The notes beneath the pieces are model-generated. The model saw only the letters and a list, made by a program, of their open reading frames with translations. It did not search any database and was not told the DNA's origin. A DNA stretch of 35,764 nt from Klebsiella pneumoniae (GTDB taxonomy: Bacteria > Pseudomonadota > Gammaproteobacteria > Eutrophobiales > Eutrophobiaceae), in NCBI GenBank assembly GCA_945870865.1, contig CAMBTO010000016.1:1-35764 (forward strand), in the 5' to 3' direction. Made by a program: the position numbers and the translations under genes. Of this stretch, positions 1,532-17,722 are shown piece after piece. The first letter of the stretch is position 1, and each line of letters opens with the position of its first letter.

Positions 1532-2176
1532 ATGCTTTCAAGAAAAACCCTGACAACACTGGCATTAATGACAGCACTGATGATCATTGGTGCGTTACTT
1601 GGTATATACACCAACCGCTTTTATCACCCTGCCCCCTCTGCGGAGTCTGTTCCCGGTCTGTTATGGCCCAATCCGAAACAGCTGACTGAATTTACTACCA
1701 TAAACCAGACCGGCGAAACCTTCGGGCTGGAAAACCTGAAGGGGAAATGGTCTTTAGTGTTTTTCGGTTATACCCATTGTCCCGATGTCTGCCCGATTAC
1801 TCTGACATTACTTGGCCAGATCCATGACAGACTGGAACAGTACTCCAGCCCAGGCCTTCAGACTGTTTTTGTCTCGGTTGATCCGGTACGTGATACCCCG
1901 GAACGCCTGGCCGGATATATCGGTTATTTTCATCCGGATTTTATCGCGCTCGGCGGATCGTTAGATCAGGTCAACGGCCTCGCCAGCCAGATCGGTATAG
2001 CCTCAAGTCATGGCGCTGTAGAAGCAGATGGCAGCTACCCGGTCAACCATTCCACATCCATACTACTGATAGACCCGCAAGCACGGTTGACAGGCATTTT
2101 CTCTGCTCCGCATGAGGCGGAAACGATAATCAGGCAGTTCGCCAGCATAGTGGAATTTATCAACCGGCAGGACTGA
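1532..2176 (+). CDS. SCO1/SenC/PrrC-family copper chaperone
   Basis: A membrane-anchored periplasmic thioredoxin-fold protein that binds copper and helps build the CuA centre of cytochrome c oxidase. The 214 residues begin with a membrane segment (about 8-26) that acts as an uncleaved anchor. The thioredoxin-like domain follows and has the copper-binding CPDVC motif (Cys83 and Cys87) and the distal ligand His173 in NHSTS. The typical SVDPxRDTPE segment is at about 115-124. The stop is followed one base later by the start of the PCuAC-Psd gene, so the two are co-transcribed. SCO and PCuAC proteins work together in CuA loading, which supports both calls. The ribosome site is weak. Confidence 0.93.
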   Translation: MLSRKTLTTLALMTALMIIGALLGIYTNRFYHPAPSAESVPGLLWPNPKQLTEFTTINQTGETFGLENLKGKWSLVFFGYTHCPDVCPITLTLLGQIHDRLEQYSSPGLQTVFVSVDPVRDTPERLAGYIGYFHPDFIALGGSLDQVNGLASQIGIASSHGAVEADGSYPVNHSTSILLIDPQARLTGIFSAPHEAETIIRQFASIVEFINRQD

Positions 2177-2177
2177 T

Positions 2178-3524
2178 ATGTTTCGCCTGTTTGTCCTGTT
2201 GCTGTTGTTACTGTCTGCAAACTTGTTTGTTCGAGCGGATGATGTGATCATCTCTGATGCGTGGATCGCCGAGGGTCCGCCGACCAGTCCTGTGAATGCC
2301 GCTTACCTGCAAATTGAAAACACAGGAACATCACTTGTAACACTGGTGGCCATTGACGGTGCTGGCTTTGAGCGTATCGAGATGCACCGAAGCCGCACGA
2401 AAAATGGAATGGCCACGATGGAGCATATCAGCCGTGTTGATATAGGGCCAGGTTACCGGCAGGTCTTCGCGCCTGGCGATTTTCACTTGATGTTATACAA
2501 TACCGGCAAGCCGCCACAATCCGGTGAAACCCGATCATTAAATTTGCACTTCGCGAATGGCACCAGCAAACAGGTCCATGCCGAGGTAAGGAAATTACCA
2601 GTGAATCAGCACCATCAACATGATGAACACAGCGGAGAAGATTCTGGGACTCTCGATCGGATCAAGGTGCTCTACCAGCATCTGTTACCACAACATTTCC
2701 TGTCCGGACTGATGTATCGGCTGACACGAATAAGTTGGGCACCGATCAAAGACCGGTTCATCCGTCATTTTATTCAGCTGTATAACGTTGACATGTCGAT
2801 TGCGATAGAACCTGCGCCCGAAAAGTACCGTCATTTCAACGAATTCTTTACCCGTCCGCTGAAGGACAGTGCACGACCGGTCGACATGGCGGATAATGCA
2901 ATTGTCTCGCCGGTTGATGCGGCCGTCAGCCAATATGGACAAATCAGCAACGGCAAATTGATCGAGGCAAAAAACCGTGACTACACGGTGGAGCAACTGC
3001 TGGGGGGTGATTCAGAACTGGCAAAACGCTTTAGCAATGGCGAGTTTATTACGCTCTATCTCTCCCCACGCGATTATCACCGCATCCACATGCCCGTGAC
3101 CGGCACGCTGCAAAGTATGACCTATGTCCCTGGCCAGTTGTTTTCTGTCAGCCCTGCGACCACGCGCGGGATAGACAATCTGTTTGCCCGCAATGAAAGG
3201 CTGGTCCAGATTTTTGACTCGGAGATTGGCAGTTTCGCCCTGGTCATGGTCGGCGCCATATTTGTAGGCAGTATGGAAACGGTGTGGGCCGGTCAGGTAA
3301 CACCCGCAAAGGAAAGAACTCAGAACACCTTACATTATCCACTGGCAGGCCAGCCCGACATCCAGCTTGCAAAAGGCAGTGAAATGGGGCGTTTTAATAT
3401 GGGATCAACTGTAATACTGTTATTTCAGCAAGGCAGGCTGGACTGGGACGCGGCCATCAGGACAAACACCTCTGTCCGTCTGGGCCAGAAGATTGCAACG
3501 ATTAATATGGCGACAGCAAACTAA
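2178..3524 (+). CDS. psd: Fusion: PCuAC periplasmic copper chaperone + phosphatidylserine decarboxylase
   Basis: One uninterrupted frame of 448 residues codes for two proteins normally made separately. Residues 1-20 are a signal peptide. Residues about 22-138 are a PCu(A)C domain with the exact copper motif H-x10-M-x21-H-x-M (His70, Met81, His103, Met105). A His/Asp/Glu-rich linker lies at 143-156. Residues about 159-445 are a full phosphatidylserine decarboxylase, which makes phosphatidylethanolamine. It has SPVDAAVSQ with Asp247, YHRIHMP with His301 and His304, and the self-cleavage site GST with Ser410 as the future pyruvoyl group (MGST instead of the usual LGST). Psd normally sits on the cytoplasmic face, whereas PCuAC is periplasmic, so the topology is contradictory. 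An internal GTG start could release Psd alone. The gene follows SCO directly and ends eight bases from the convergent nuoN. Family calls are secure; how the product matures is not. Confidence 0.92.
   Translation: MFRLFVLLLLLLSANLFVRADDVIISDAWIAEGPPTSPVNAAYLQIENTGTSLVTLVAIDGAGFERIEMHRSRTKNGMATMEHISRVDIGPGYRQVFAPGDFHLMLYNTGKPPQSGETRSLNLHFANGTSKQVHAEVRKLPVNQHHQHDEHSGEDSGTLDRIKVLYQHLLPQHFLSGLMYRLTRISWAPIKDRFIRHFIQLYNVDMSIAIEPAPEKYRHFNEFFTRPLKDSARPVDMADNAIVSPVDAAVSQYGQISNGKLIEAKNRDYTVEQLLGGDSELAKRFSNGEFITLYLSPRDYHRIHMPVTGTLQSMTYVPGQLFSVSPATTRGIDNLFARNERLVQIFDSEIGSFALVMVGAIFVGSMETVWAGQVTPAKERTQNTLHYPLAGQPDIQLAKGSEMGRFNMGSTVILLFQQGRLDWDAAIRTNTSVRLGQKIATINMATAN
2583..2603 (+). promoter_or_regulatory. 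Candidate internal ribosome site and GTG start for the Psd half
   Basis: Inside the fusion gene a GAGG and an AAGGA (2588-2592) lie upstream of an in-frame GTG at 2601-2603, with an eight-base gap from AAGGA. Initiation here would give a 307-residue protein starting at codon 142. It would hold the His-rich linker and the whole decarboxylase but no signal peptide, about the usual size of a bacterial Psd. This is inference from sequence only. Confidence 0.45.
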
Positions 3525-3532
3525 ATAACGGT

Positions 3533-4975
3533 TTACTGAACGACGCCGAGAACCTTCAGACACAGCCCCATCAACATGCCTGGCATAAACCCGATCAGCA
3601 ATACTGCAATACCGTTCAGACTAAGGATAAACCGCATTTGTTGTGAACCCTTGAACGCAATCATATTCTCAGGCTCATCAAAATACATCAGCTTGACCAC
3701 GCGCAGGTAATAGAAGGCCCCGATGACGGAGAAGATGACGGCTATCGAAGCAAGCAATACATTACCCGAGGCAATAACTTCCTTGACCACAAACCATTTC
3801 GACCAGAACCCGGCGAGTGGCGGCACGCCGGCCATCGAGAACATCAGGATCAGCATGATAAAGGCATACCAGGGACTGCGTCGGGCCAGACCCTTGAAGT
3901 CGTTCAGGCTGTCGGCTTCCATACCCTTGCGTCCAAGCAGGATAATCATACCGAACGAACCCATGCTCATAATGGCGTAGATCAGGATATAGAACATTGA
4001 ACCGGCATAGCCATTTGGTGTACCACTGATCATACCCAGCAGGAAGAAACCGACGTGCGCAATTGTCGAATACGCCAGCATGCGCTTGATATTGGTCTGT
4101 GCGATGGCAATGACATTTCCGGTCGCCATCGATAATAATGCCAGCACCATCAACATGCCCTGCCAGTCGGCCAGCAACGGTTGCATACCATCCGCCAGTA
4201 ACCTGAAAGTCATCGCAAACGCAGCAATCTTGGGTGCACTGCTGATAAACAGGGTAACGGCTGTTGGAGCACCCTCATAAATGTCGGGAACCCACATATG
4301 GAACGGCACGGCACCCAGCTTGAATGCAACACCTACGATAATAAACACCAGACCAAAAACCAGTAACAGGCTGGAGTTGGCATCACCATTCTGCGCGATA
4401 TAGGCAGAGATCCCCTGTAAATCAAGCACACCGGTCACACCGTATAACATCGAGATACCATAAAGCAGCATGCCGGAGGCCATCGCACCGAGCACAAAAT
4501 ATTTCATCGCCGCTTCCGAGGCCGTCACCGGATGTTTATGCATCGCGACCATGGCATAGAGAGACAGCGACAATAACTCAAGACCGAGATAGATGGTAAG
4601 CAGGCTGGCTGCGGAAACCATAATCATCATACCAAGGACAGCGAACAGTCCGAGCACAAAATATTCGCCGCGAATAATCTCGTGCTTCTTCAGATAATCA
4701 TACGAATAGAAGAACACTACCAGGGACACCAGTGCAATCGCCGCCTTCAATACCACGCTCATCGGGTCAGTGACAAAATGCCCGGAGAAGGCAATTGTTT
4801 CCGTTGCCGGCGATAACCAGACGACCAGAAATGCCACGACCGCCAGCGTTGCCTGGCTAAACCAGTAGGTCAGGGCCTTGTCTTCATCAACTATCACTGT
4901 ATCAAGAATCAAAATGATACAGGCCATCGTCAGTAAAACAATTTCAGGGGCCAGCAGGAGTATTTCCGGGATCAT
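3533..4975 (-). CDS. nuoN: NADH-quinone oxidoreductase subunit N
   Basis: One of the three Mrp-antiporter-like proton-pumping subunits of complex I, buried in the inner membrane (480 residues, about 14 helices). The proton-path residues are present: Glu133 in GLELLSLSLY, Lys219 in AFKLGAVPFHMWVPD and Lys249 in SSAPKIAAF. Length is normal for the family. It is the last gene of the nuo operon, 13 bases after nuoM. Its stop lies eight bases from the stop of the convergent PCuAC-Psd gene, leaving no room for a terminator hairpin between them. Confidence 0.98.
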   Translation of the reverse strand: MIPEILLLAPEIVLLTMACIILILDTVIVDEDKALTYWFSQATLAVVAFLVVWLSPATETIAFSGHFVTDPMSVVLKAAIALVSLVVFFYSYDYLKKHEIIRGEYFVLGLFAVLGMMIMVSAASLLTIYLGLELLSLSLYAMVAMHKHPVTASEAAMKYFVLGAMASGMLLYGISMLYGVTGVLDLQGISAYIAQNGDANSSLLLVFGLVFIIVGVAFKLGAVPFHMWVPDIYEGAPTAVTLFISSAPKIAAFAMTFRLLADGMQPLLADWQGMLMVLALLSMATGNVIAIAQTNIKRMLAYSTIAHVGFFLLGMISGTPNGYAGSMFYILIYAIMSMGSFGMIILLGRKGMEADSLNDFKGLARRSPWYAFIMLILMFSMAGVPPLAGFWSKWFVVKEVIASGNVLLASIAVIFSVIGAFYYLRVVKLMYFDEPENMIAFKGSQQMRFILSLNGIAVLLIGFMPGMLMGLCLKVLGVVQ

Positions 4976-4988
4976 GACTGTTTAATGG

Positions 4989-6506
4989 TTAACCTGTTTT
5001 CGACTGCATTATATGATTGAACAGATATTCAATAGACGGATGCATCATATCGAATATCGGAGCGGGCCAGATTCCAAATACCAGCACAGCTATCGCCAGT
5101 ACGGAAAGAAAGAAGGTTTCCCTGGCGTTGATGTCCTGTAATTCCGCCACATGGTCATTGGCCACATCACCGAATATCACCCGTTTATACATCCACAGGG
5201 AATAGGCAGCGCCCATGATTAAGGTCAGGGCGGCAAGAAATGCTATCCAGAATCCTGACTGGTAGCTGGCAAGTATGACCAGAAACTCACCGACAAAGCC
5301 GGAAGTACCTGGCAGGCCGGCATTGGCCATCGTAAACAGCAACATGAATGCGGCAAATTTCGGCATCGTATTGGCAACACCCCCATACGAACTGATCTCG
5401 CGACTGTGCATGCGGTCATACAGTACACCCACACAGAGGAACATTGCCGCGGAGATAAAACCGTGGGAAATCATCTGCATCATCGCCCCTTCCAGCGCCA
5501 TCAGTGAGCCACTGTTGTCTGCGGTGGAGGTGACAATCGAGAAGACGACGAAAAAGCCCAGCGTGACAAAACCCATATGCGAAATGGAGGAATAGGCGAT
5601 CAGTTTCTTCATATCAGTCTGTACCAGCGCAACAAAACCGATATAGACGATGGCAAACAACGACAACACAATCATGAACGTGTCGTAGGCCATACTTGCA
5701 TCCGGTGTGATTGGCAGACTGAAGCGGATAAAACCGTATCCGCCCATCTTCAGCATGATGGCCGCCAGCACGACTGAACCGGCGGTAGGCGCCTCGACAT
5801 GGGCATCCGGCAACCAGGTGTGTACCGGCCACATGGGAATCTTCACCGCAAAGGCGAGGAAAAAGGCGATAAAAATCAACTTCTGTTCATTCAGTGACAG
5901 CGGCAAAGCATGCATGTCCGGAATACTGAAACTGCCACCCTTCGCATACATATATAGCAGGGCAACCAACATAAATACCGAGCCCAGAAATGTATAAAGG
6001 AAAAACTTGATCGTTGCATAAACGCGGCGTGGCCCACCCCAGATACCGATAATAAGGAACATCGGTATCAACATCGCTTCCCAGAAGAAGTAGAACAGGA
6101 TCGCATCGACCGCTGCAAACACACCATTCATCAGGCCTTCGAGTATCAGGAATGCTGCCATGAACTGTGATACCCGGGATTCAATCACGTCCCAGGCCGA
6201 GAGTATGACCAGGATCGTAGTGAATGTGGTCAACAGGATCAACGGCAGGGCGATGCCATCAATACCGAGGTGATAGTTGATTTTAAATACCTCAATCCAG
6301 CTACGGTATTCGACAAACTGCAGGGCCGGTGTGGTCAGATCAAAATCGGCATAGGCCATCAATGACAGCACAAACACCAGTATGGAAACCATCAGCGAAA
6401 AGACCTTTACAGTCTGCTCCTGGCGGTCACCAAGATACAATACCCAGATACCTCCCAGTATCGGGGTCCAGACCAGCAGGCTTAGAAACGGCAGGTTCAG
6501 ATCCAT
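4989..6506 (-). CDS. nuoM: NADH-quinone oxidoreductase subunit M
   Basis: The second antiporter-like proton-pumping membrane subunit of complex I, 505 residues. The channel residues are in place: Glu143 in FWEAMLIPMF, Lys222 in AVKIPMWPVHTWLPDAH and Lys253 in IMLKMGGYG. The PVHTWLPDAHVEAPT stretch is a family signature. It lies 11 bases after nuoL and 13 before nuoN, so it is translated as part of the operon message. Nothing is unusual about it. Confidence 0.98.
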   Translation of the reverse strand: MDLNLPFLSLLVWTPILGGIWVLYLGDRQEQTVKVFSLMVSILVFVLSLMAYADFDLTTPALQFVEYRSWIEVFKINYHLGIDGIALPLILLTTFTTILVILSAWDVIESRVSQFMAAFLILEGLMNGVFAAVDAILFYFFWEAMLIPMFLIIGIWGGPRRVYATIKFFLYTFLGSVFMLVALLYMYAKGGSFSIPDMHALPLSLNEQKLIFIAFFLAFAVKIPMWPVHTWLPDAHVEAPTAGSVVLAAIMLKMGGYGFIRFSLPITPDASMAYDTFMIVLSLFAIVYIGFVALVQTDMKKLIAYSSISHMGFVTLGFFVVFSIVTSTADNSGSLMALEGAMMQMISHGFISAAMFLCVGVLYDRMHSREISSYGGVANTMPKFAAFMLLFTMANAGLPGTSGFVGEFLVILASYQSGFWIAFLAALTLIMGAAYSLWMYKRVIFGDVANDHVAELQDINARETFFLSVLAIAVLVFGIWPAPIFDMMHPSIEYLFNHIMQSKTG

Positions 6507-6517
6507 ATAAATTCCTG

Positions 6518-8491
6518 TTACTGCATGATTCGATGAACAAAAACTGCCAGCAGTACCAGTAACCCGATGATCATCGTAAACGCATAATCATACAGATGGC
6601 CCGACTGCAGTACCCGTATCCTGGCAGAGAACCAGCGGACCGCGTGGGCTGTTCCATTTACCAGTAAACCGTCAATAATCTTTACATCACCAATCTGCCA
6701 TAACAGCCGTCCCAGATTTCTCGCTCCGCCGGCAAACACAGCCTGGTTGATATCATCCAGCCAGTACTTGTTCATTAACGCGCGGTAGAGCAGACCGGAA
6801 TGTGCCGCAATCTTTGCCGGTATAGTCGGTTGTTTGATATAGAGGAACCAGGCCACAAACACCCCGGCCAGTGCCAGATACACCGGTGCCGCCTGGAATG
6901 AATGCAGGATAAAGGCGGTGATGCCGTGATACTCCTCGCCGATGATACCTATCACATCATGTTCCGGGGCGACATAGATGGCCTCGAGGAAATAGCCGCC
7001 AAATAACATCGGTCCGATCAGGAATGCACCTATAACCAGTGACGGAATCGCCAGCACCGACAACGGCACAGTCACGACCGCCGGTGACTCGTGCAAATAC
7101 TCCTCGGTATGGTGGTCCATACGCTTCTCGCCATGGAACACGAGGAAGAACAACCGGAAAGAGTAGAGTGCGGTAATAAATACACCACTGAGTACCGCTA
7201 CATAGGCCCAGTCAGCAAACGGCAGGTTTGAATGATGGACTGCCTCAATAATCGCGTCCTTCGAGAAAAATCCAGCCGTGCCCGGGAAACCTATCAGCGC
7301 GAGTGAACCTATCAGCGAGGTAATCCAGGTGATGGGCATGTGACGATATAACCCGCCCATCTTGCGCATGTCCTGCTCATGGTGCATACCCATAATAACC
7401 GAACCGGCAGCAAGGAATAACAGAGCCTTGAAGAAGGCGTGGGTGACCAGATGGAATATCGCCGCCGAGTAGGCCGATACGCCGAGCGCCACCGTCATGT
7501 AACCCAGCTGTGACAAGGTTGAATAGGCGATAACGCGTTTGATGTCGTTCTGCACTAGGCCGAGCAGACCCATGAAAAATGCAGTTATCGTACCGATAAC
7601 CAGGATAAACGTCAGTGCTGTCTCCGACAGTTCGAACATCGGTGACATCCTCGCGACCATGAAGATACCGGCTGTCACCATCGTCGCCGCATGGATTAAC
7701 GCTGAGATCGGGGTCGGACCTTCCATCGAATCAGGCAGCCACACATGTAATGGCACCTGGGCCGACTTGCCCATCGCGCCGATAAACAGACAAATACAGA
7801 TGACCGACATCAATGACCAGTCGGTACCCGGCAGGATCTGTACGGTTGCGGTCGCAAAGGCCGGCAACTGGGCAAACACCTCATTATAATCCAGCGTCTT
7901 GAACGTCATCACCACTGCGGCGATACCCAGCAGGAAACCAAAGTCGCCGACCCGGTTGACCAGAAATGCCTTCATATTGGCGAATATGGCTGAATCACGC
8001 TTGAACCAGAAACCAATGAGCAGATACGAAACCAGGCCGACCGCTTCCCAGCCAAAAAACAGCTGCATGAAATTGTTCGACATGACCAGCATCAGCATCG
8101 AAAAGGTAAACAGCGAGATATAGCTGAAGAAACGCTGGTATCCCGGATCCTCGTGCATATAGCCGATGGTGTAGATGTGGATCATCCACGAAACAAAGGT
8201 CACCACTACCATCATCGTGACCGATAAACGGTCAACCAGAAATCCGACATGCAGTGACAAGCTGCCGGTAGTCAGCCAGGTATAGATCGTCTGGTTAAAG
8301 ATTTCACCACCATCGAAAACGATATGCTTGTAAGCATACAGTGACAACAGGCTCGAAATACCCACACCAATAATGGTGACCCAATGGGCACCGTTACGCC
8401 CGATAACACGTCCGAACAGGCCGGCGATAATCGAGCCGATCAGCGGTGCGAGTACAATGGCAAGATAGACTGATTTCATGTCTGTTGGCAT
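6518..8491 (-). CDS. nuoL: NADH-quinone oxidoreductase subunit L
   Basis: The distal proton-pumping subunit of complex I, 657 residues. It has the antiporter core plus the long C-terminal amphipathic lateral helix and final anchoring helix expected of NuoL; the last about 25 residues are again hydrophobic. Glu149 in FGWEAVGLVSYLLIGFW and the SAQVPLHVWLPDSMEGPTPISALIHAATMV region match the proton-channel signature. It starts five bases after nuoK. The start ATG gives MPTDMKS; a second Met at residue 5 could equally be used. Confidence 0.98.
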   Translation of the reverse strand: MPTDMKSVYLAIVLAPLIGSIIAGLFGRVIGRNGAHWVTIIGVGISSLLSLYAYKHIVFDGGEIFNQTIYTWLTTGSLSLHVGFLVDRLSVTMMVVVTFVSWMIHIYTIGYMHEDPGYQRFFSYISLFTFSMLMLVMSNNFMQLFFGWEAVGLVSYLLIGFWFKRDSAIFANMKAFLVNRVGDFGFLLGIAAVVMTFKTLDYNEVFAQLPAFATATVQILPGTDWSLMSVICICLFIGAMGKSAQVPLHVWLPDSMEGPTPISALIHAATMVTAGIFMVARMSPMFELSETALTFILVIGTITAFFMGLLGLVQNDIKRVIAYSTLSQLGYMTVALGVSAYSAAIFHLVTHAFFKALLFLAAGSVIMGMHHEQDMRKMGGLYRHMPITWITSLIGSLALIGFPGTAGFFSKDAIIEAVHHSNLPFADWAYVAVLSGVFITALYSFRLFFLVFHGEKRMDHHTEEYLHESPAVVTVPLSVLAIPSLVIGAFLIGPMLFGGYFLEAIYVAPEHDVIGIIGEEYHGITAFILHSFQAAPVYLALAGVFVAWFLYIKQPTIPAKIAAHSGLLYRALMNKYWLDDINQAVFAGGARNLGRLLWQIGDVKIIDGLLVNGTAHAVRWFSARIRVLQSGHLYDYAFTMIIGLLVLLAVFVHRIMQ

Positions 8492-8496
8492 CGCAT

Positions 8497-8802
8497 CTAT
8501 CCCTTCAAGGTGTCCAGATCAGCAACATTTATGGTGTTCCTGTTCCTGAACAGCACCACCAGTATCGCCAGTCCGATGGCTGATTCTGCCGCCGCGACAG
8601 TCAGGATGAAAAACACGAATATCTGACCGTTGATATCATGCAGGAAGTGGGAGAAGGCGATGAAATTCATATTGACCGACAGCAACATCAACTCGATACA
8701 CATCAACAGGATAATCACGTTTTTACGATTGATAAAAATACCGGCAACACTGATACAGAACAGAATCGCGGCAAGTATGAGTACGTGGCTGAGTGTAATC
8801 AT
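8497..8802 (-). CDS. nuoK: NADH-quinone oxidoreductase subunit K
   Basis: A small three-helix membrane subunit of complex I (101 residues, the usual size) that forms part of the fourth proton channel next to NuoJ. The two conserved membrane glutamates are Glu37 ([11 protein letters not shown]) and Glu73 ([11 protein letters not shown]). Its start overlaps the nuoJ stop by four bases, which indicates coupled translation. Confidence 0.98.
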
Positions 8803-9404
8803 GGCGTCTTCTTCTCCGAGGCCATTTTGACCAGCCGCACCCGATCCTTGCTCTTGACCAGCACCTGCTCATCCGGGTTCTGCGTTTTCAGGGACCTTAC
8901 CTTGCGCAGTGTCAGACTGATTGCGGCAATAATCGCCACCAGCAGGATGGCACCTGATATTTCAAACGGATACAAATAGTCGGTATAAAGCACTATGCCC
9001 AGTTCACGGGTATTGCTGTAATCCAGCGGCGGTTCAGTCACCACATCCAGATGCGCGGCATCCAGATAGACTGTTTTAAGTACCATCCCCATTGCCACAG
9101 CCATCAACACGGCGACCACAACACCCACAGGGAGAAACTGTGCGAACCCTTCCCGCATCTTCGCCAGATTGATATCCAGCATCATCACCACAAACAGGAA
9201 CAACACCATGACTGCCCCGACATAGACCAGTATCAGGATGATGGCGAGGAATTCCGCCCGCATCAGCAACCAGATGGTTGCGCTGGCGAAAAACGCCAGC
9301 ACCAGAAACAGGGCTGCATGCACAGGATTACGGACTGTTATGACCATGGTGGCCGATAACAGCATCACTGCTGCAAAGAAATAGAAGATATATAGTTCAA
9401 ACAT
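8799..9404 (-). CDS. nuoJ: NADH-quinone oxidoreductase subunit J
   Basis: A membrane subunit of complex I, 201 residues with five hydrophobic helices and a charged C-terminal tail. The third helix has the glycine-containing [19 protein letters not shown] signature, the pi-bulge helix that moves during turnover. It overlaps nuoK by four bases. It is separated from nuoI by 37 bases, one of the larger gaps in the operon. Its ribosome site is weak. Confidence 0.97.
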
Positions 9405-9441
9405 AAATGGTTTTTTTCAGTTCTCTATAAGGCCGGGTTGC

Positions 9442-9930
9442 TTACCTGTACATTGCGTCCCTGGCTCGGGCTGCTGCAATCTGTTGCTGATACTTGTCGC
9501 CGTTGTCGAGTAGACGTTGTTTTGTCATCAGCAGATCACCCCGCTTCTCGCCATGATATTCAAATATATGCGTCTCAACGATCGAATCAACCGGACAGGA
9601 CTCTTCACAGAAACCGCAAAAGATACATTTGGTCAAGTCAATATCGTAACGCGTAGTACGACGTGTACCGTCTTCCCTTTGCTCGGAATCGATGGTGATA
9701 GCAACTGCTGGACACACCGCTTCGCATAATTTGCAGGCTATACAGCGCTCTTCCCCGTTCGGGTAACGTCGTAATGCATGCAGGCCACGGAAACGTGGCG
9801 ACATGGGTGTCTTTTCCTCAGGGTAAAATATTGTGATTTTCCGCTTGAACAGGTATTTGCCTGTCAGTTGCAGACCCTTGATCAGTTCCCACAGCAGTAG
9901 TCCCTGGAAATATTGTGTGACTTTGGTCAT
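9442..9930 (-). CDS. nuoI: NADH-quinone oxidoreductase subunit I, 2x[4Fe-4S]
   Basis: The hydrophilic ferredoxin-like subunit of complex I that carries clusters N6a and N6b and passes electrons towards N2 in NuoB. The 162 residues hold two CxxCxxCxxxCP motifs: Cys63, 66, 69, 73 ([12 protein letters not shown]) and Cys102, 105, 108, 112 ([12 protein letters not shown]). The N-terminal amphipathic stretch is the usual membrane-contact helix. It lies 11 bases after nuoH. Size and motifs are those of the proteobacterial type. Confidence 0.98.
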
Positions 9931-9941
9931 TTCGTCTCTCG

Positions 9942-11054
9942 TTAATCGAACCAGGGTGGTATACCTGTAACCACCATCGCCGAAATTATCACAACCCAGA
10001 CGATGGTAATTGGCAGGAAGACCTTCCAGCCGAGACGCATAATCTGGTCATAGCGGTAGCGGGGGAATGTTGCCCGGAACCACAAAAAAAGGAACAGGAA
10101 GAATGATGTTTTTGCCAGCAACCACACGACCGAAGGTTCACCGATGACCGGCACACCCTCAAGTGGTGACAACCAGCCACCCAGAAACAGGATGGACGCC
10201 AGTACGGATATCAGCACCATGTTGGCGTATTCGGCCATAAAGAAGATTGAGAATGCCATACCGCCGTATTCAACGTGAAAACCGGCAACAATTTCAGATT
10301 CACCTTCAGCAACGTCAAACGGCGCACGGTTGGTCTCGGCCACGCCAGAGATAAAATAGATGATGAATACCGGGAACAAGGGGAGCCAGAACCAGTGGAG
10401 GATACTGCCACTCTGGGCCTGGATTACTTCACCCAGGTTCAGACTGCCCGCAGCGATCAGTACGCACACGAGTGCAAAACCCATCGCAATTTCGTAGGAT
10501 ATAATCTGTGCTGCTGAACGAATGGCGCCGAGAAATGCATATTTGGAATTGGAGGCCCAGCCAGCAATGATAATGCCGTATACCGCAAGAGAGGTCAGCG
10601 CGAGGATATAAATCAGACCGGCGTTGATATCTGCCAGCACCATCACATCATCAAACGGTATCACCGCCCAGGCGGCAATTGCCGGGGCAAATGACAGAAT
10701 CGGCGCGAGAATAAACAAGGTCTTGTTTGCACCGGTCGGAATTATAATTTCCTTGAACATCAGCTTGACCGCATCGGCAATCGGCTGGCCGAGGCCCCAC
10801 AGCGGATAACCCAGAAAACCAACCCGATTCGGACCAATCCGGCCCTGGATATAACCGATTATCTTGCGTTCTGCGTAGGTGATATAGGCCACCATCAACA
10901 TCAGCGGGGTAATGATCGCGACAATTTTAACGATTGAACCGGCAACCAACAGCGCCTCGTCCTGCATTGATTCTGGCACAATGACCCCGATAACGGCCAT
11001 CAAGATATTCGTCTCAATCCACCCGAAAATTGTGCCTAATACTGTGCTTAACAT
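9942..11054 (-). CDS. nuoH: NADH-quinone oxidoreductase subunit H
   Basis: The membrane subunit of complex I that forms much of the quinone-binding chamber, 370 residues with about eight or nine helices. Family signatures include [19 protein letters not shown] near residue 61, and [24 protein letters not shown] in the loop that lines the quinone pocket. It is a little longer than many NuoH proteins, mainly through an N-terminal hydrophobic stretch ahead of the usual core. It lies six bases after nuoG. Confidence 0.98.
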
Positions 11055-11060
11055 GGGCGC

Positions 11061-13424
11061 CTATACTTTCCTGATCGTGATATCACTGAACCATGACCCC
11101 AAAACGGCAGTCGCCGGGTGGGCCGCATGGATTAATACGGTATCGTCGGGCAACCTGCTGTCGACGAGACAGGTCAGATCCAGTGTGACGCCCTGCTGCT
11201 CTACCCTGACCTTGTCACTGCCATTCAGACCGAGACTGGCCGCGAGTATACTGCTGATACGTACATTCGCATCGGCGACATCCGCCGTTTCCTGCAACGC
11301 CGGTGCCCGCCTTACCAGCGAATCGACAGAATTCATCGGCATCTCGGTAATACGGTAGACCTGCTTACCCATTGCTGGCAAGGCAGCGGGTCGATCCCAG
11401 ACAGAACCGTTATCAGGCGCAATACCGGAAATGACCTTGCCAAGCTCATTGCGGATTTCATCTATCGACTGGTAGTCCGTGCCAACGATACCCAGATGAT
11501 TTGCCAATACACGTAATATCTTCCAGCCCGGGCGTGCCTGGCCCGGTGCGCTGACACAGGCAGAAAATTGCTGTGACTGACCGGCGACGTTGACGGTTGT
11601 ACCCTCATTTTCGGCATAAATGGCTATAGGTAATAATACATCAGCATGTTTCAATAACGAGGCAGACTTGTATGGGGTGAATGCAATCACAGACTGTGCC
11701 TGCTCCAGACCTTCCAGCACCAGCCGGGTGTTGGCACAATCCAGATCCGGTTCGATATTAAACAAGAGATAAGTCGACTGTTTCTGTTCAAACATACTGC
11801 GGGCATTCAGGCCAGGATTGTCCAGCTTCTGTGCAGCGGGCCCACGATGCGGTACGGCACCGGCAAGCCAGGCACCGGCCTCGTTTGCGGCCTCACCGAG
11901 ATAACCAAAACGGGATCCGGACAGTTCTGCAATATGCCCGGCCAGGTAACGCAGCGTTGCATACTGCGGATGAGCGGTAAACAGGTTGCCTGCCAGTATG
12001 GCGGACTGATTGCCCGCTATCAGTTTGTTTGCTATTGCACGGTGCGCATCCGCAACCGTCACATCATCCAGCAAGCTGCCAACATTTACCTGCTTGCCGG
12101 AAAGTTCACAGACGGCCTTTAATACAGCCGCCAGTTCGCGCACCAGTGCCACCGGTCCGGCTATCAGTTTCGTGTCGATGCGGTAATTAAAGTCATAATC
12201 GACCAGATTGATGACCATCACTTCGGAACCACGTAGCGCGGCCTTGCGTAAACGCAGGTTCAAAAGTGGTTGTTGCTTGCGCGGATTTGCGCAGACCAGC
12301 AGTACGGCATCCAGTTTTTCCAGATCAGCAATAGACTGGCCCAGTGAGGGAAACACGGCATCATGCTGCGCATCGGCGAAATCCGTCTGATGCAGGCGAT
12401 GATCGATATTGTTGCTGCCCGCCGCACGGACTATTTTCTGTAATAACCAGGACTCTTCAGTTGTTGCCGTCGGTGAGACCAGCGCGCCGAGGCTGTTTGC
12501 TGCCTGCTTTAACCTGTCGCTGACAATTCTGAATGCTGTATCCCAGTCACATTCGCGCCAGGTGCTATTTTCCTTCAGCATCGGTACAGTCAGGCGGTCT
12601 TCGCTGTACATTCCCTCGTAGCTGAAGCGGTCACGGTCAGACAACCAGACCTCATTAATGTCTTCATTCTGTGCCGGCACCACACGTTTGACCTGATCGC
12701 GCTTCACATGGAAGTGGATATTTGAACCGGTGCCATCATGCGGTGCAACCCCCGGATACTGGGTAATTTCCCAGGTACGGGCCGAGAAACGAAATGGCTT
12801 TGAGGTCAACGCACCGACCGGGCACACATCTATTACATTACCCGACAACTCGGACACCATGCTCTTTTCCACATAGGTACCGATTTCCATATATTCACTG
12901 CGGCCGGTTGCGCCCAGTTCACGCAAGCCGGCAATTTCCTCACCAAACCTGACGCAACGTGTGCAATGGATACAGCGGGTCATCTCCGTCTGTACCAGTG
13001 GGCCAATGTTCTTGTCCTTTACGACCCGCTTCTTTTCCTGGTAACGCGAGACGTCCGAGCCATAGCCCATGGCCAGATCCTGTAGCTCACATTCACCACC
13101 CTGATCACAAATCGGGCAATCCAGCGGATGGTTTATCAACAGAAACTCCATCACCGCCTTCTGCGCGTCGCGTGCATAGGCGGAGCGGGTCTGCACCTTC
13201 ATACCGTCCATGACCGGTGTCGCACAAGCCGGTAATGGTTTGGGTGCCTTTTCCACCTGCACCAGACACATCCTGCAGTTGGCAGCGATCGTCAGTTTCG
13301 GGTGATAGCAAAAACGCGGGATATAGATATCGTTCGCATCGGTCACCTCGATCAGCATCTGTCCCTTGCGGGCCTGTAGCGGTTTGCCGTCTACTTCGAT
13401 TGTAATTGTGTCGTTATCTGCCAT
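11061..13424 (-). CDS. nuoG: NADH-quinone oxidoreductase subunit G, Fe-S protein
   Basis: The largest peripheral-arm subunit of complex I, 787 residues. The N-terminal quarter carries three clusters. The [2Fe-2S] N1b has Cys39, 50, 53, 67; the [4Fe-4S] N5 has His99, Cys103, 106, 112; and N4 has Cys151, 154, 157, 201. The rest is a molybdopterin-oxidoreductase-like domain that has lost its cofactor role, as usual in NuoG. The extra N7 cluster motif of enteric NuoG is not evident, and the protein is shorter than the roughly 900-residue enteric form. It lies 17 bases after nuoF. Confidence 0.98.
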   Translation of the reverse strand: MADNDTITIEVDGKPLQARKGQMLIEVTDANDIYIPRFCYHPKLTIAANCRMCLVQVEKAPKPLPACATPVMDGMKVQTRSAYARDAQKAVMEFLLINHPLDCPICDQGGECELQDLAMGYGSDVSRYQEKKRVVKDKNIGPLVQTEMTRCIHCTRCVRFGEEIAGLRELGATGRSEYMEIGTYVEKSMVSELSGNVIDVCPVGALTSKPFRFSARTWEITQYPGVAPHDGTGSNIHFHVKRDQVKRVVPAQNEDINEVWLSDRDRFSYEGMYSEDRLTVPMLKENSTWRECDWDTAFRIVSDRLKQAANSLGALVSPTATTEESWLLQKIVRAAGSNNIDHRLHQTDFADAQHDAVFPSLGQSIADLEKLDAVLLVCANPRKQQPLLNLRLRKAALRGSEVMVINLVDYDFNYRIDTKLIAGPVALVRELAAVLKAVCELSGKQVNVGSLLDDVTVADAHRAIANKLIAGNQSAILAGNLFTAHPQYATLRYLAGHIAELSGSRFGYLGEAANEAGAWLAGAVPHRGPAAQKLDNPGLNARSMFEQKQSTYLLFNIEPDLDCANTRLVLEGLEQAQSVIAFTPYKSASLLKHADVLLPIAIYAENEGTTVNVAGQSQQFSACVSAPGQARPGWKILRVLANHLGIVGTDYQSIDEIRNELGKVISGIAPDNGSVWDRPAALPAMGKQVYRITEMPMNSVDSLVRRAPALQETADVADANVRISSILAASLGLNGSDKVRVEQQGVTLDLTCLVDSRLPDDTVLIHAAHPATAVLGSWFSDITIRKV

Positions 13425-13441
13425 TGCCTGTCCGCCGCCGG

Positions 13442-14749
13442 TTATGCGGCCTTGTATTCGGGACTGTCAATAATGCTGCGTCCCTTGTTTTTAATCATGT
13501 ATTCAAATTCATGCCGGTAATGTTTCATAAAGCTCTGTACCGGCCATGCCGCCGCGTCACCAAGTGCACAGATAGTCCTGCCTTCAATCTTGTTGGCCAC
13601 ATCGACCAGCTTGTCCAAGTCTTCCATCATACCCTTGCCGTCGAGGATACGACGCAGCATGCGGTACAACCAGCCGGTACCTTCACGACAGGGTGTGCAC
13701 TGGCCACAGGACTCGGCGGCATAAAACTGCGAGATGCGGCATAACATCTTCACCATACAGGTGGAGTCATCCATGATTACCACAGCACCCGAACCCAGCA
13801 TCGAACCGGCCTGCTTGATCGAGTCATAATCCATATTGGCCTTCAACATCATCTCACCCGGCAATACCGGAACCGATGAACCACCCGGTATGACGGCCTT
13901 CAGCTTTCTGCCATGACGGATTCCACCGGCCAGCTCAAGCAGATCGGCGAACGATGTACCCATCGGGATCTCGAAATTGCCCGGCTTGTTCACATGACCG
14001 CTGACCGAAAAACATTTGGTACCACCACTGTTTGCAACGCCAAGATCAGCGAACCACTTTGCACCGTTACGTATGATTGACGGGGCAGAGGCAAAGGTCT
14101 CGGTATTGTTAATGGTGGTAGGTTTGCCATACAGGCCAAAGTTGGCCGGGAATGGCGGCTTGAAACGCGGCAGACCTTTTTTGCCCTCGAGTGAATTCAG
14201 CAGGGCGGTCTCTTCACCGCATATATAGGCGCCAGCACCGAGTGTCCCATATATATCAATACTGGTATCCGAGCCAAGGATATTGTTGCCCAGATAATTA
14301 TTTGCGTACGCCTCTTTCAGCGCATTTTCAAAGCGGGTAAACGGTTCGTCCATGAATTCGCCACGCATGTAGTTATAACCAACCCTGGTAAGCATTGCGT
14401 AACAGGCAATGATCATCCCTTCAACCAGGGCATGCGGATTAAACCGCAGAATGTCGCGATCCTTGCAGGTACCCGGCTCACTCTCGTCCGAGTTACACAC
14501 CACGTATTTTGGTCCTTCAAACTTCGCGGGCATGAAACTCCACTTCAGACCGGCCGGGAATCCCGCACCGCCCCTGCCGCGCAGACCGGAGGCCTTCATC
14601 TCGTCTATGACCTGCTCCGGGGTGATCCCCTCGCGGATAATCTTTTTCAGCGCCTCGTAACCACCGACCCGGTGATAGTTTTCCAGCGTCCACGGCTGGT
14701 CGACGCCGAGCGTGGCATAACAGACCAGATTTTGTTTTATCTCAGCCAT
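13442..14749 (-). CDS. nuoF: NADH-quinone oxidoreductase subunit F, NADH/FMN site
   Basis: The electron-entry subunit of complex I, where NADH reduces FMN. The 435 residues show the glycine-rich FMN/NADH motif GRGGAGFP at 58-65. Further flavin-site features are [15 protein letters not shown] at 85-99 and [19 protein letters not shown] at 171-189. The N3 [4Fe-4S] ligands are Cys348, 351, 354 and Cys394. Its ATG overlaps the nuoE stop by one base (TGATG), so translation is coupled. Length is standard. Confidence 0.99.
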
Positions 14750-15249
14750 CAGTCCAGTTTGTCCAGGATTTCATCCATCTTCGCATTGGTCAGGTTTTCA
14801 TAATAGACATGGTCCACCATCATCATCGGCCCACCACAACAGGCCGCGAGACACTCCTCTTCCTTCTTCAGAAAGATTCGACCGTCCGTCGTGGTCTCCC
14901 CGGTCCTGATACCGAGCTTCTTTTCTGTGTAATCAACGATTGCATCTGATCCGGTCAGCATGCAGGAGATGTTCGTGCAGATGGAAACGCTGTGCCGACC
15001 TACCGGTTTTGTTTCCAGCATCGAATAGAAACTGCCCACTTCATAGACCGCAATCGGTGGCATCTCCAGATATTCAGCAACTGCATCCATCAATTCTGTG
15101 GTCAAAAATCCATTATTGTCATGCTGGACTTCACGCAGTGCCGCGAGCACGGCGGATTGCTTGCGGTCAGCAGGATACTTTGCCAACCAATGGTCTATCT
15201 GCTCACGGGCATGGTGGGACAATTTGCCTTTTGAATCAGTCATACTCAT
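14749..15249 (-). CDS. nuoE: NADH-quinone oxidoreductase subunit E, [2Fe-2S]
   Basis: A thioredoxin-like subunit of complex I holding cluster N1a beside the FMN of NuoF. The 166 residues carry the four ligands Cys91, Cys96, Cys133 and Cys137 (CTNISC and CLAACC). Start choice is between the ATG at 15249 and another two codons later; the first overlaps the nuoD stop by four bases and is preferred. It is coupled to nuoF through a one-base overlap. Confidence 0.98.
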
Positions 15250-16499
15250 CTGTCCACCTCACCAAACACGATATCCTGGGTACCGATTACCGCCACCACG
15301 TCTGCCAGCATATGGCCCTGGACCATTTCATTCATTGAGGACAGGTGGACAAAACCAGGCGCTCGAATCTTCAGTCGATACGGTTTGTTTGCGCCATCGG
15401 AAACCAGATAAATACCAAACTCACCCTTCGGATGTTCGACGGCGGCATAACACTCGCCTTCCGGCACACAGTAGCCTTCTGTAAACAGCTTGAAATGATG
15501 GATCAATGATTCCATATCGTCCTTCATCGCTTCACGTGTCGGCGGCACCAGCTTGTGGTTATCCAGAATGACCGGGCCGGGGTTCTTGCGTAACCAGTCT
15601 ACACACTGTTTGATAATCCGGTTGGACTGACGCATTTCCTCTATCCGGACCAGGTACCGATCGTAACAATCCCCGTTCACACCCACCGGGATATCAAAGT
15701 CGACCTGGTCATAAACTTCATACGGCTGTTTCTTGCGCAGATCCCATTCCACACCGGAGCCACGCAGCATCGGGCCGGTAAACCCGAGCTGTAACGCGCG
15801 TTCCGGGGTGACTACACCGATACCAACCGTACGCTGTTTCCAGATACGGTTGTCCGTCAGCAGCGTCTCATACTCGTCGACACAGCCGGGGAACCTGGCG
15901 GTAAACGCCTCAATAAAATCAAGCAGTGAGCCCTGGCGGATCGCGTTCAGATCGGCCACGTGTTTTGCATTCTTCCAGGCAGAGGTCTGGTATTTTGGCA
16001 TCTCGCCGGGCAGATCACGGTAGACACCACCGGGGCGATAATACGTGGCATGCATACGCGTGCCGGAGACCGCTTCATAACAGTCCATCAGGTCTTCGCG
16101 CTCACGGAAACAGTACAGGAATATCGTCATTGCACCGATGTCCAGACCGTGTGCGCCCAGCCACATAAGATGGTTCAGAACACGGGTAATCTCGTCAAAC
16201 ATGACGCGGATATACTGGGCACGGATCGGCGGGGTAACACCAAGTAGCTTCTCGATCGCCAGCACATAGGCATGTTCGTTACACATCATCGAAACATAAT
16301 CAAGCCGGTCCATATAACCAATACTCTGGTTATACGGCTTGGATTCAGCCAACTTTTCGGTTCCACGGTGCAACAGGCCGATATGCGGGTCTGCACGCTC
16401 AATGATTTCGCCGTCCATCTCCAGCACCAGGCGCAAGACACCATGCGCCGCAGGATGCTGCGGACCAAAGTTCATCGTCATGTTTCTGATTTCAGGCAT
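15246..16499 (-). CDS. nuoD: NADH-quinone oxidoreductase subunit D
   Basis: The 49-kDa-type subunit that lines the quinone-reduction site with NuoB. The 417 residues open with the [22 protein letters not shown] motif and end with GDVxFGEVDR-type residues (DIVFGEVDR), both typical of the family derived from the [NiFe] hydrogenase large subunit. It is a separate gene, not fused to nuoC, which argues against an enteric host. A 47-base gap separates it from nuoC, the widest in the operon. It overlaps nuoE by four bases. Confidence 0.99.
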
Positions 16500-16546
16500 T
16501 CAATCTCGACTCGGTAATCGTGGGTTATGCTTTATTCTTGTTTTAG

Positions 16547-17221
16547 TTACTTGTTCGGTGTGTCAAAACGGTCATCATGGCGGATGACCTTCGGTACCAG
16601 CACGCGGTTCTTGATCGTTACCGGCTGGTAAACAACACGTTTCTTGTCCGGGTCATAACGTACCTCGACATTCCCTTCCAGCGGGAAGTCCTTGCGGAAC
16701 GGATGGCCAATAAAACCGTAGTCAGTAAGTATACGACGCAGATCCGGATGGCCCTCGAACAGGATACCGAACATATCAAACGCCTCACGTTCGAACCAGT
16801 TCGCACATGCCCAGATATCGACAACAGAATCGATCCTTGGCGGCATATCATCGAGGAATACCCGCACCCGCAGGCGGTGGTTATGGCGAACTGACATCAG
16901 GTGATAAACAACCGCAAACCGTGCCGGCTTGTTCAGATGTTCATCATGTACGTCCTGGCTGACGCCACGGCTGAAGCCTGACGTCGTAGTTTCCTGGGTC
17001 TCCCAGTCGGACTTGCCGTAGCGCTGGTAATCAATTCCACACAGATCTATCAGTTGTTCGAACTGGCAATCCGGGTTTTTACGCAGAGCGCCAAGAACTT
17101 CTATCGCATGATCACGAAGCACTTCCAGCGTCAATTCATTTCGGTAGATGGTTGACGAGCCTAGCTTGTCACCGAACAGACCTGTCAGCAGTGTTTGAAA
17201 TTGTACCAGCGATTCCGACAT
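16547..17221 (-). CDS. nuoC: NADH-quinone oxidoreductase subunit C
   Basis: The 30-kDa-type peripheral subunit of complex I, 224 residues, with no cofactor. The signature is in the second half: [42 protein letters not shown]. It lies 15 bases after nuoB. A short extra loop around residues 75-95 ([20 protein letters not shown]) is charged and polar and looks lineage specific. The start ATG at 17221 gives MSESLVQFQ. Confidence 0.98.
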
Positions 17222-17236
17222 TTTCCGGTTGTATTC

Positions 17237-17722
17237 CTAGGCGGAGATAATATTGACTTTGCCGCGTTTAATCTTCTTCTGGAGCTGGATTATTCCAAAC
17301 AACAAGGCCTCTGCTGTAGGCGGACACCCCGGTACATAAATATCAACCGGCACAATCCGGTCACAACCACGCACCACTGCATAGGAATAATGATAATAAC
17401 CACCGCCATTGGCACAGGAACCCATCGAGATAACCCAGCGCGGTTCGGGCATCTGGTCATACACCTTGCGCAAGGCAGGTGCCATTTTGTTGACCAGCGT
17501 ACCGGCAACTATCATTACATCGGACTGGCGGGGGCTCGGGCGGAAGATTATGCCGAAGCGGTCCAGATCGTACCGGGACGCACCTGCATGCATCATTTCG
17601 ACCGCACAACAGGCCAGACCAAACGTCATCGGCCACATAGAGCCGGTCCTGGCCCAGTTAACGAGATTGTCAAACGAGGTCGTGACTATTCCCGGTTCAT
17701 GGATTTTCTCTTCTACTCCCAT
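17237..17722 (-). CDS. nuoB: NADH-quinone oxidoreductase subunit B, cluster N2
   Basis: The subunit that holds cluster N2, the last electron donor to quinone. The 161 residues have all four ligands: adjacent Cys38-Cys39 ([10 protein letters not shown]), Cys103 (GSCANGGG) and Cys133 (PGCPP). Its start lies inside the end of nuoA with a 10-base overlap. Size and motifs are typical. Confidence 0.99.

Follow-up and report, generated by a model that had tools for sequence, protein, structure and literature searches.

A PCuAC copper chaperone fused in frame to phosphatidylserine decarboxylase in one gammaproteobacterial genus

A copper chaperone of the PCuAC type and a phosphatidylserine decarboxylase (Psd) are joined in a single open frame of 448 codons (448 amino acids) plus stop at positions 2178-3524 on the plus strand of the window, by which we mean the whole stretch of 35,764 nucleotides analysed. 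Each domain is a typical member of a known family; it is their combination that is new. The fused frame is open in four species. From the features described below, we estimate a probability of about 0.62 that the whole protein is exported and that its Psd part, with the copper chaperone attached, acts from the periplasmic side of the inner membrane.

The fused protein and its domains

The window corresponds to contig 16 in a draft genome of 2.17 Mb, which comprises 97 contigs and is listed as 100% complete. The ATG start of the fused frame lies one base past the stop codon of a SCO1/SenC copper protein gene, its upstream operon partner (1532-2176, plus strand; Pfam SCO1-SenC, E 5.1e-38). A complex I (nuo) cluster on the minus strand (3533-17722) converges on the fused gene; in G002, a related genome, the fused gene has a different downstream setting. 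Residues 1-20 (MFRLFVLLLLLLSANLFVRA; 2178-2237, plus strand) were read by eye as a signal peptide of the Sec type with the cut site V-R-A|D, and the structure model has a helix at residues 2-17. An alignment of the four fusions showed an N-terminal hydrophobic leader in every one of them.

The PCuAC domain occupies residues 25-133 (2250-2576, plus strand). It matched PF04314 over the full profile (1-109) with an E value of 4.5e-25 and 88.1 bits, compared to a gathering cut-off of 29.4. The motif H(M)x10Mx21HxM is the copper site of PCuAC proteins (PMC9145763). The exact H-x10-M-x21-H-x-M form given in the original prediction was found at H70, M81, H103 and M105, and these residues are invariant in the four fusions. 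No second PCuAC was found in this genome, and the fused copy is the only one. The domain is followed by a linker at residues 140-157 (2595-2648, plus strand), which is disordered by pLDDT and contains the stretch NQHHQHDEH.

The Psd part begins with three amphipathic helices at residues 158-202 (2649-2783, plus strand), placed by the model at 158-169, 172-182 and 188-202. They are a putative membrane anchor, as their counterparts in E. coli Psd, H1-H3, bind the membrane (PMC7952604). The catalytic domain at residues 220-440 (2835-3497, plus strand) matched PS_Dcarbxylase (PF02666) with an E value of 1.3e-63 and 214.7 bits against a cut-off of 22, and the NCBIfam model TIGR00163 gave 246 bits (cut-off 112). 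The Pfam match covers profile positions 1-197 of 198, and the Psd is full-length with its Asp, His and GST residues, as had been claimed. Residues D247, D299, H301, H304 and G409-S410-T411 are identical in the four fusions, and D247, D299, H301 and S410 are the counterparts of E. coli D90, D142, H144 and S254 (PMC7952604). The fusion aligns with E. coli Psd as far as the cleavage glycine of that enzyme. Self-cleavage at the G409-S410-T411 motif (3402-3410, plus strand) would yield a PCuAC-linker-beta chain ending at residue 409 and a pyruvoyl alpha chain of residues 410-448.

The AlphaFold2 model (mean pLDDT 88) consists of two confident domains and a flexible linker, with residues 143-156 below 50. 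In a sequence search against known structures, the best matches were E. coli PSD (6l06, 7cnw) for the Psd part and PCuAC and AccA for the N-terminal part. Foldseek gave TM scores, by target length, of 0.92-0.93 for the Psd part against E. coli PSD (7cnx, 6l06) and 0.90 for the PCuAC part against AccA (9yah). The fusion thus shares with PCuAC/AccA proteins (PF04314; PDB 2k6w, 9yah, 3zja) the fold, the H-x10-M-x21-H-x-M site, the leader, a His-containing tail and a SCO1 neighbour. The known members found are free proteins, whereas in the fusion the tail continues into Psd. With the E. coli-type Psd (TIGR00163; 6l06, 7cnx) it shares about 45% identity over the structure, the three N-terminal helices, the Asp and His residues and the GST motif. 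It differs from that enzyme by an added N-terminal copper domain, predicted to be exported, by the absence of cysteine and by a probable periplasmic location. The PDB entries 6p16 and 6p1g, compared by entry description, are given as the PCuAC domain of PmoF1/PmoF2, a domain that the fusion shares, and no Psd is indicated there. In the open-access literature, we found no paper that names PCuAC and phosphatidylserine decarboxylase together, in agreement with the earlier statement that no described PCuAC-Psd protein is known.

Conservation and origin of the fused gene

The genus sample consisted of five searchable genomes, four of which carry the gene: this genome (G000), G001, G002 and G003. 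The frame is free of stops in all four, which are separate assemblies, and the proteins are 90% (G001) and 45-47% (G002 and G003) identical to the window protein. A joining of two genes by an assembly or sequencing error might be suspected in a draft of 97 contigs. It is for practical purposes ruled out by the open frame in four species, since the assemblies are independent, one of them holds the gene on a 2.18-Mb contig (G002), and neither a stop nor a frame break occurs in any. The in-frame fusion is therefore real, with both profile matches above cut-off, and the same domain order recurs in related genomes as far as four of the five in the genus. The public contig CAMDWI010000026.1, which is the G001 contig, holds the nearest relative of the gene and its locus; the Klebsiella pneumoniae label is almost certainly wrong.

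The linker was examined in the comparison of G000 with G001. Its 21 codons carry five synonymous and four non-synonymous changes, and third positions account for six of the ten base changes. This preference for third positions is the pattern expected of translated DNA. The length and sequence of the linker are poorly conserved among the four fusions. The His-rich linker noted in the original prediction is present here, and the His tail of PCuAC survives as linker in G000 and G001; it is not kept in G002 and G003.

The ancestral form, with separate PCuAC and psd genes, was found in 51 loci from other genera. In these loci, PCuAC typically ends in a His run, Psd begins some tens of bases downstream, and a Sco-type motif lies just upstream in 43 of the 51. 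The fusion arose from such a SCO1-PCuAC-psd operon. The original prediction had considered relatives in which a one-base difference restores two separate genes. This case does not apply: the two-gene relatives found belong to other genera, and their junction is built differently. The four fusions form one clade with a support of 0.98 in the Psd tree and 0.99 in the joint tree; the PCuAC tree alone was too weak to recover this clade.

Outside the genus, no fused frame was found in the family (48 other genomes) or in a sample of 368 other genomes of the class, where the full-length matches listed all held in-frame stops. None was found in 298 other genomes of the phylum at E<=1e-90, and none on plasmids at 80% coverage. 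Two candidates were rejected. The long open frame of G178 (residues 83-439) arises because SCO1 and psd share an open stretch by chance, with no PCuAC between them; in G034 (open frame 552), both matches are in the same frame, but several stops lie between them. As the fusions are one clade and the other genera have the unfused form, these results indicate that the fusion is a single event, so far confined to one genus and kept to about 45% identity.

Membrane side of the Psd domain

For E. coli Psd, the stated site of action is the cytoplasmic side of the membrane (PMC7952604). In the same organism, new PS and PE first appear in the periplasmic leaflet, which a review calls surprising (PMC8027125). 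The original prediction had left two options for the fusion, a Psd working from the periplasmic side or a separation of the two parts. We favour export of the whole protein because leaders are present in all four fusions, cysteine is absent from the fused Psd domains, and read-through alone makes the fusion. A single chain would be made from ATG 2178, the signal peptide of PCuAC would direct it through the Sec system, and the leader would be removed after export. The amphipathic helices of Psd would then hold the protein on the periplasmic side of the inner membrane, and Psd would cleave itself between G409 and S410, so that PCuAC stays on the beta chain. E. coli Psd is a dimer of heterodimers, and there would thus be two chaperone domains per enzyme. 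The substrate PS would have to reach the outer leaflet. PCuAC would serve as a membrane-tethered copper carrier, probably acting with the neighbouring SCO1 on the CuA site of the oxidase. The conversion of the chaperone's tail into a linker need not harm it, since the His/Met tail of gonococcal AccA is dispensable (PMC13006917). From these features, we infer that the Psd part is exported and active in the periplasm, and that oxidase assembly may benefit.

The cysteine content bears on this reading. None of the four fused Psd domains contains cysteine, and the window protein as a whole is free of it. Among unfused Psds of the family, 24 of 25 contain between one and four cysteines, and the short Psds of the genus retain two or three. 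Cysteine is almost always absent from the exported PCuAC domains. In a wider set, Psds free of cysteine made up 4 of 48 unfused proteins encoded next to PCuAC and 11 of 71 others. The cysteine-free fused Psd fits export, as supporting evidence and no proof, because the four fusions share ancestry and much of the pattern could stem from one loss in their ancestor.

A separate cytoplasmic Psd is possible because candidate internal starts are present, GTG 2601 in G000 and G001 and ATGs in G002 and G003. GTG 2601 is the only good candidate here and would give a Psd of 307 amino acids. It is preceded by a possible internal ribosome site (AGGTAAGGA; the site and GTG together at 2584-2603, plus strand) with a hybridisation energy of -7.2 kcal/mol, a value equalled or bettered by 1.7% of 573 internal start-like codons. 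Two products could then be made, an exported fusion (or a PCuAC cleaved from it) from ATG 2178 and a cytoplasmic Psd from the internal start, with the stop codon lost since read-through is harmless. This main rival to export of the whole protein is, in our judgement, rather unlikely. It is favoured by the strength of the SD-like AGGTAAGGA, by its identity, together with the GTG, in G001, and by an ATG at the old Psd start in both G002 and G003, which in G003 has an SD-like stretch. However, GTG 2601 lies inside the former His tail of PCuAC and not at the usual Psd start, the ATG of G002 has no SD (-1.9 kcal/mol), the SD of the window gene overlaps E-V-R-K codons that are constrained by the protein, and the loss of cysteine from Psd is not predicted. 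SD strength did not decide whether Psd has a start of its own, because the unfused psd genes of the family often have no SD.

Two further explanations concern the fate of the chain itself. A periplasmic protease could cut the exported fusion in the linker, so that PCuAC is set free and Psd stays in the periplasm; the fusion would then be a mere device for Psd export. Residues 143-156 are disordered in the model and the linker is poorly conserved, which speaks for such cutting, but no protease site is known there, and we consider it improbable. Alternatively, the signal peptide could be unused, or could stay uncut and serve as an anchor that keeps the C-terminal part inside, leaving Psd in the cytoplasm and the PCuAC half without function. 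Psd is normally cytoplasmic (PMC7952604), which fits this view; however, the PCuAC ligands and the leader are kept in four species and the genome has no other PCuAC, which makes this explanation very improbable. Taken together, the leader and the absence of cysteine speak against a cytoplasmic-face location of Psd, and the internal GTG would keep it alive. Thus, of the two options of the original prediction, the periplasmic one is favoured by the leaders, the cysteine content and the loss of a second psd gene described below, and a separate Psd is kept in play by the GTG and its SD.

The only recognised Psd of this genome and its operon

G001, G002 and G003 also carry a short Psd of about 215 amino acids (PRK05305-like) in the gene order ilvC-psd-pssA-leuA. 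In G000, ilvC and pssA are in place and the short psd is missing. Comparison of contig 29 (3400-3700) of G000 with G001 showed a clean 694-bp deletion between two AGTCTG copies that removes the gene, and no copy was found elsewhere in the G000 genome. This leaves the fusion as the sole recognised Psd of the genome, which retains pssA. This loss leans towards export of the whole protein, and a second product from the internal start would also explain why G000 could lose the short psd. Two complete-looking genomes, G004 of the same genus and G006 of another genus of the family, keep pssA and have no recognised Psd of either type. Lack of a recognised Psd is therefore tolerated or compensated in this family, and a lone Psd need not be essential.

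In many families of the gammaproteobacteria, PCuAC adjoins psd, and a Sco-type gene precedes the pair in most cases (the 51 loci above). Sco and PCuAC cooperate in building CuA (PMC9145763), and this genome has two genes of the COX1 family; a promoter scan gave nothing useful. The SCO1-PCuAC-psd order may itself indicate that the supply of PE and the assembly of CuA are connected. An effect of the fusion on oxidase assembly is a guess from operon context, that is, from SCO1 upstream here and in 43 of the 51 unfused loci. We propose only tentatively that the PE of the genus is made from the periplasmic face, at sites of oxidase assembly, by a Psd tied to an oxidase-building copper chaperone, which would here be the sole source of PE.

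Mitochondrial Psd1/PISD offers an analogy only. It is an inner-membrane Psd like the fusion, with its catalytic part exposed to the intermembrane space, which corresponds to the periplasm. It differs from the fusion by a membrane-spanning anchor and by having no copper domain. Cytochrome bc1 requires the PE that Psd1/PISD makes, and complex IV is affected by it (PMC6441012).

The membrane side on which PE first appears is an open matter, and Psd has been described as cytoplasmic. A naturally secreted Psd, if true, would mean that a cell can live on PE synthesised in the periplasm, and it would be a ready tool for testing this. If a periplasmic Psd is the only source of PE, PS must flip outward before PE forms. 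The widespread SCO1-PCuAC-psd order and the fusion in one genus suggest that the supply of lipid is linked to the building of the oxidase, a link of which mitochondria show another form.
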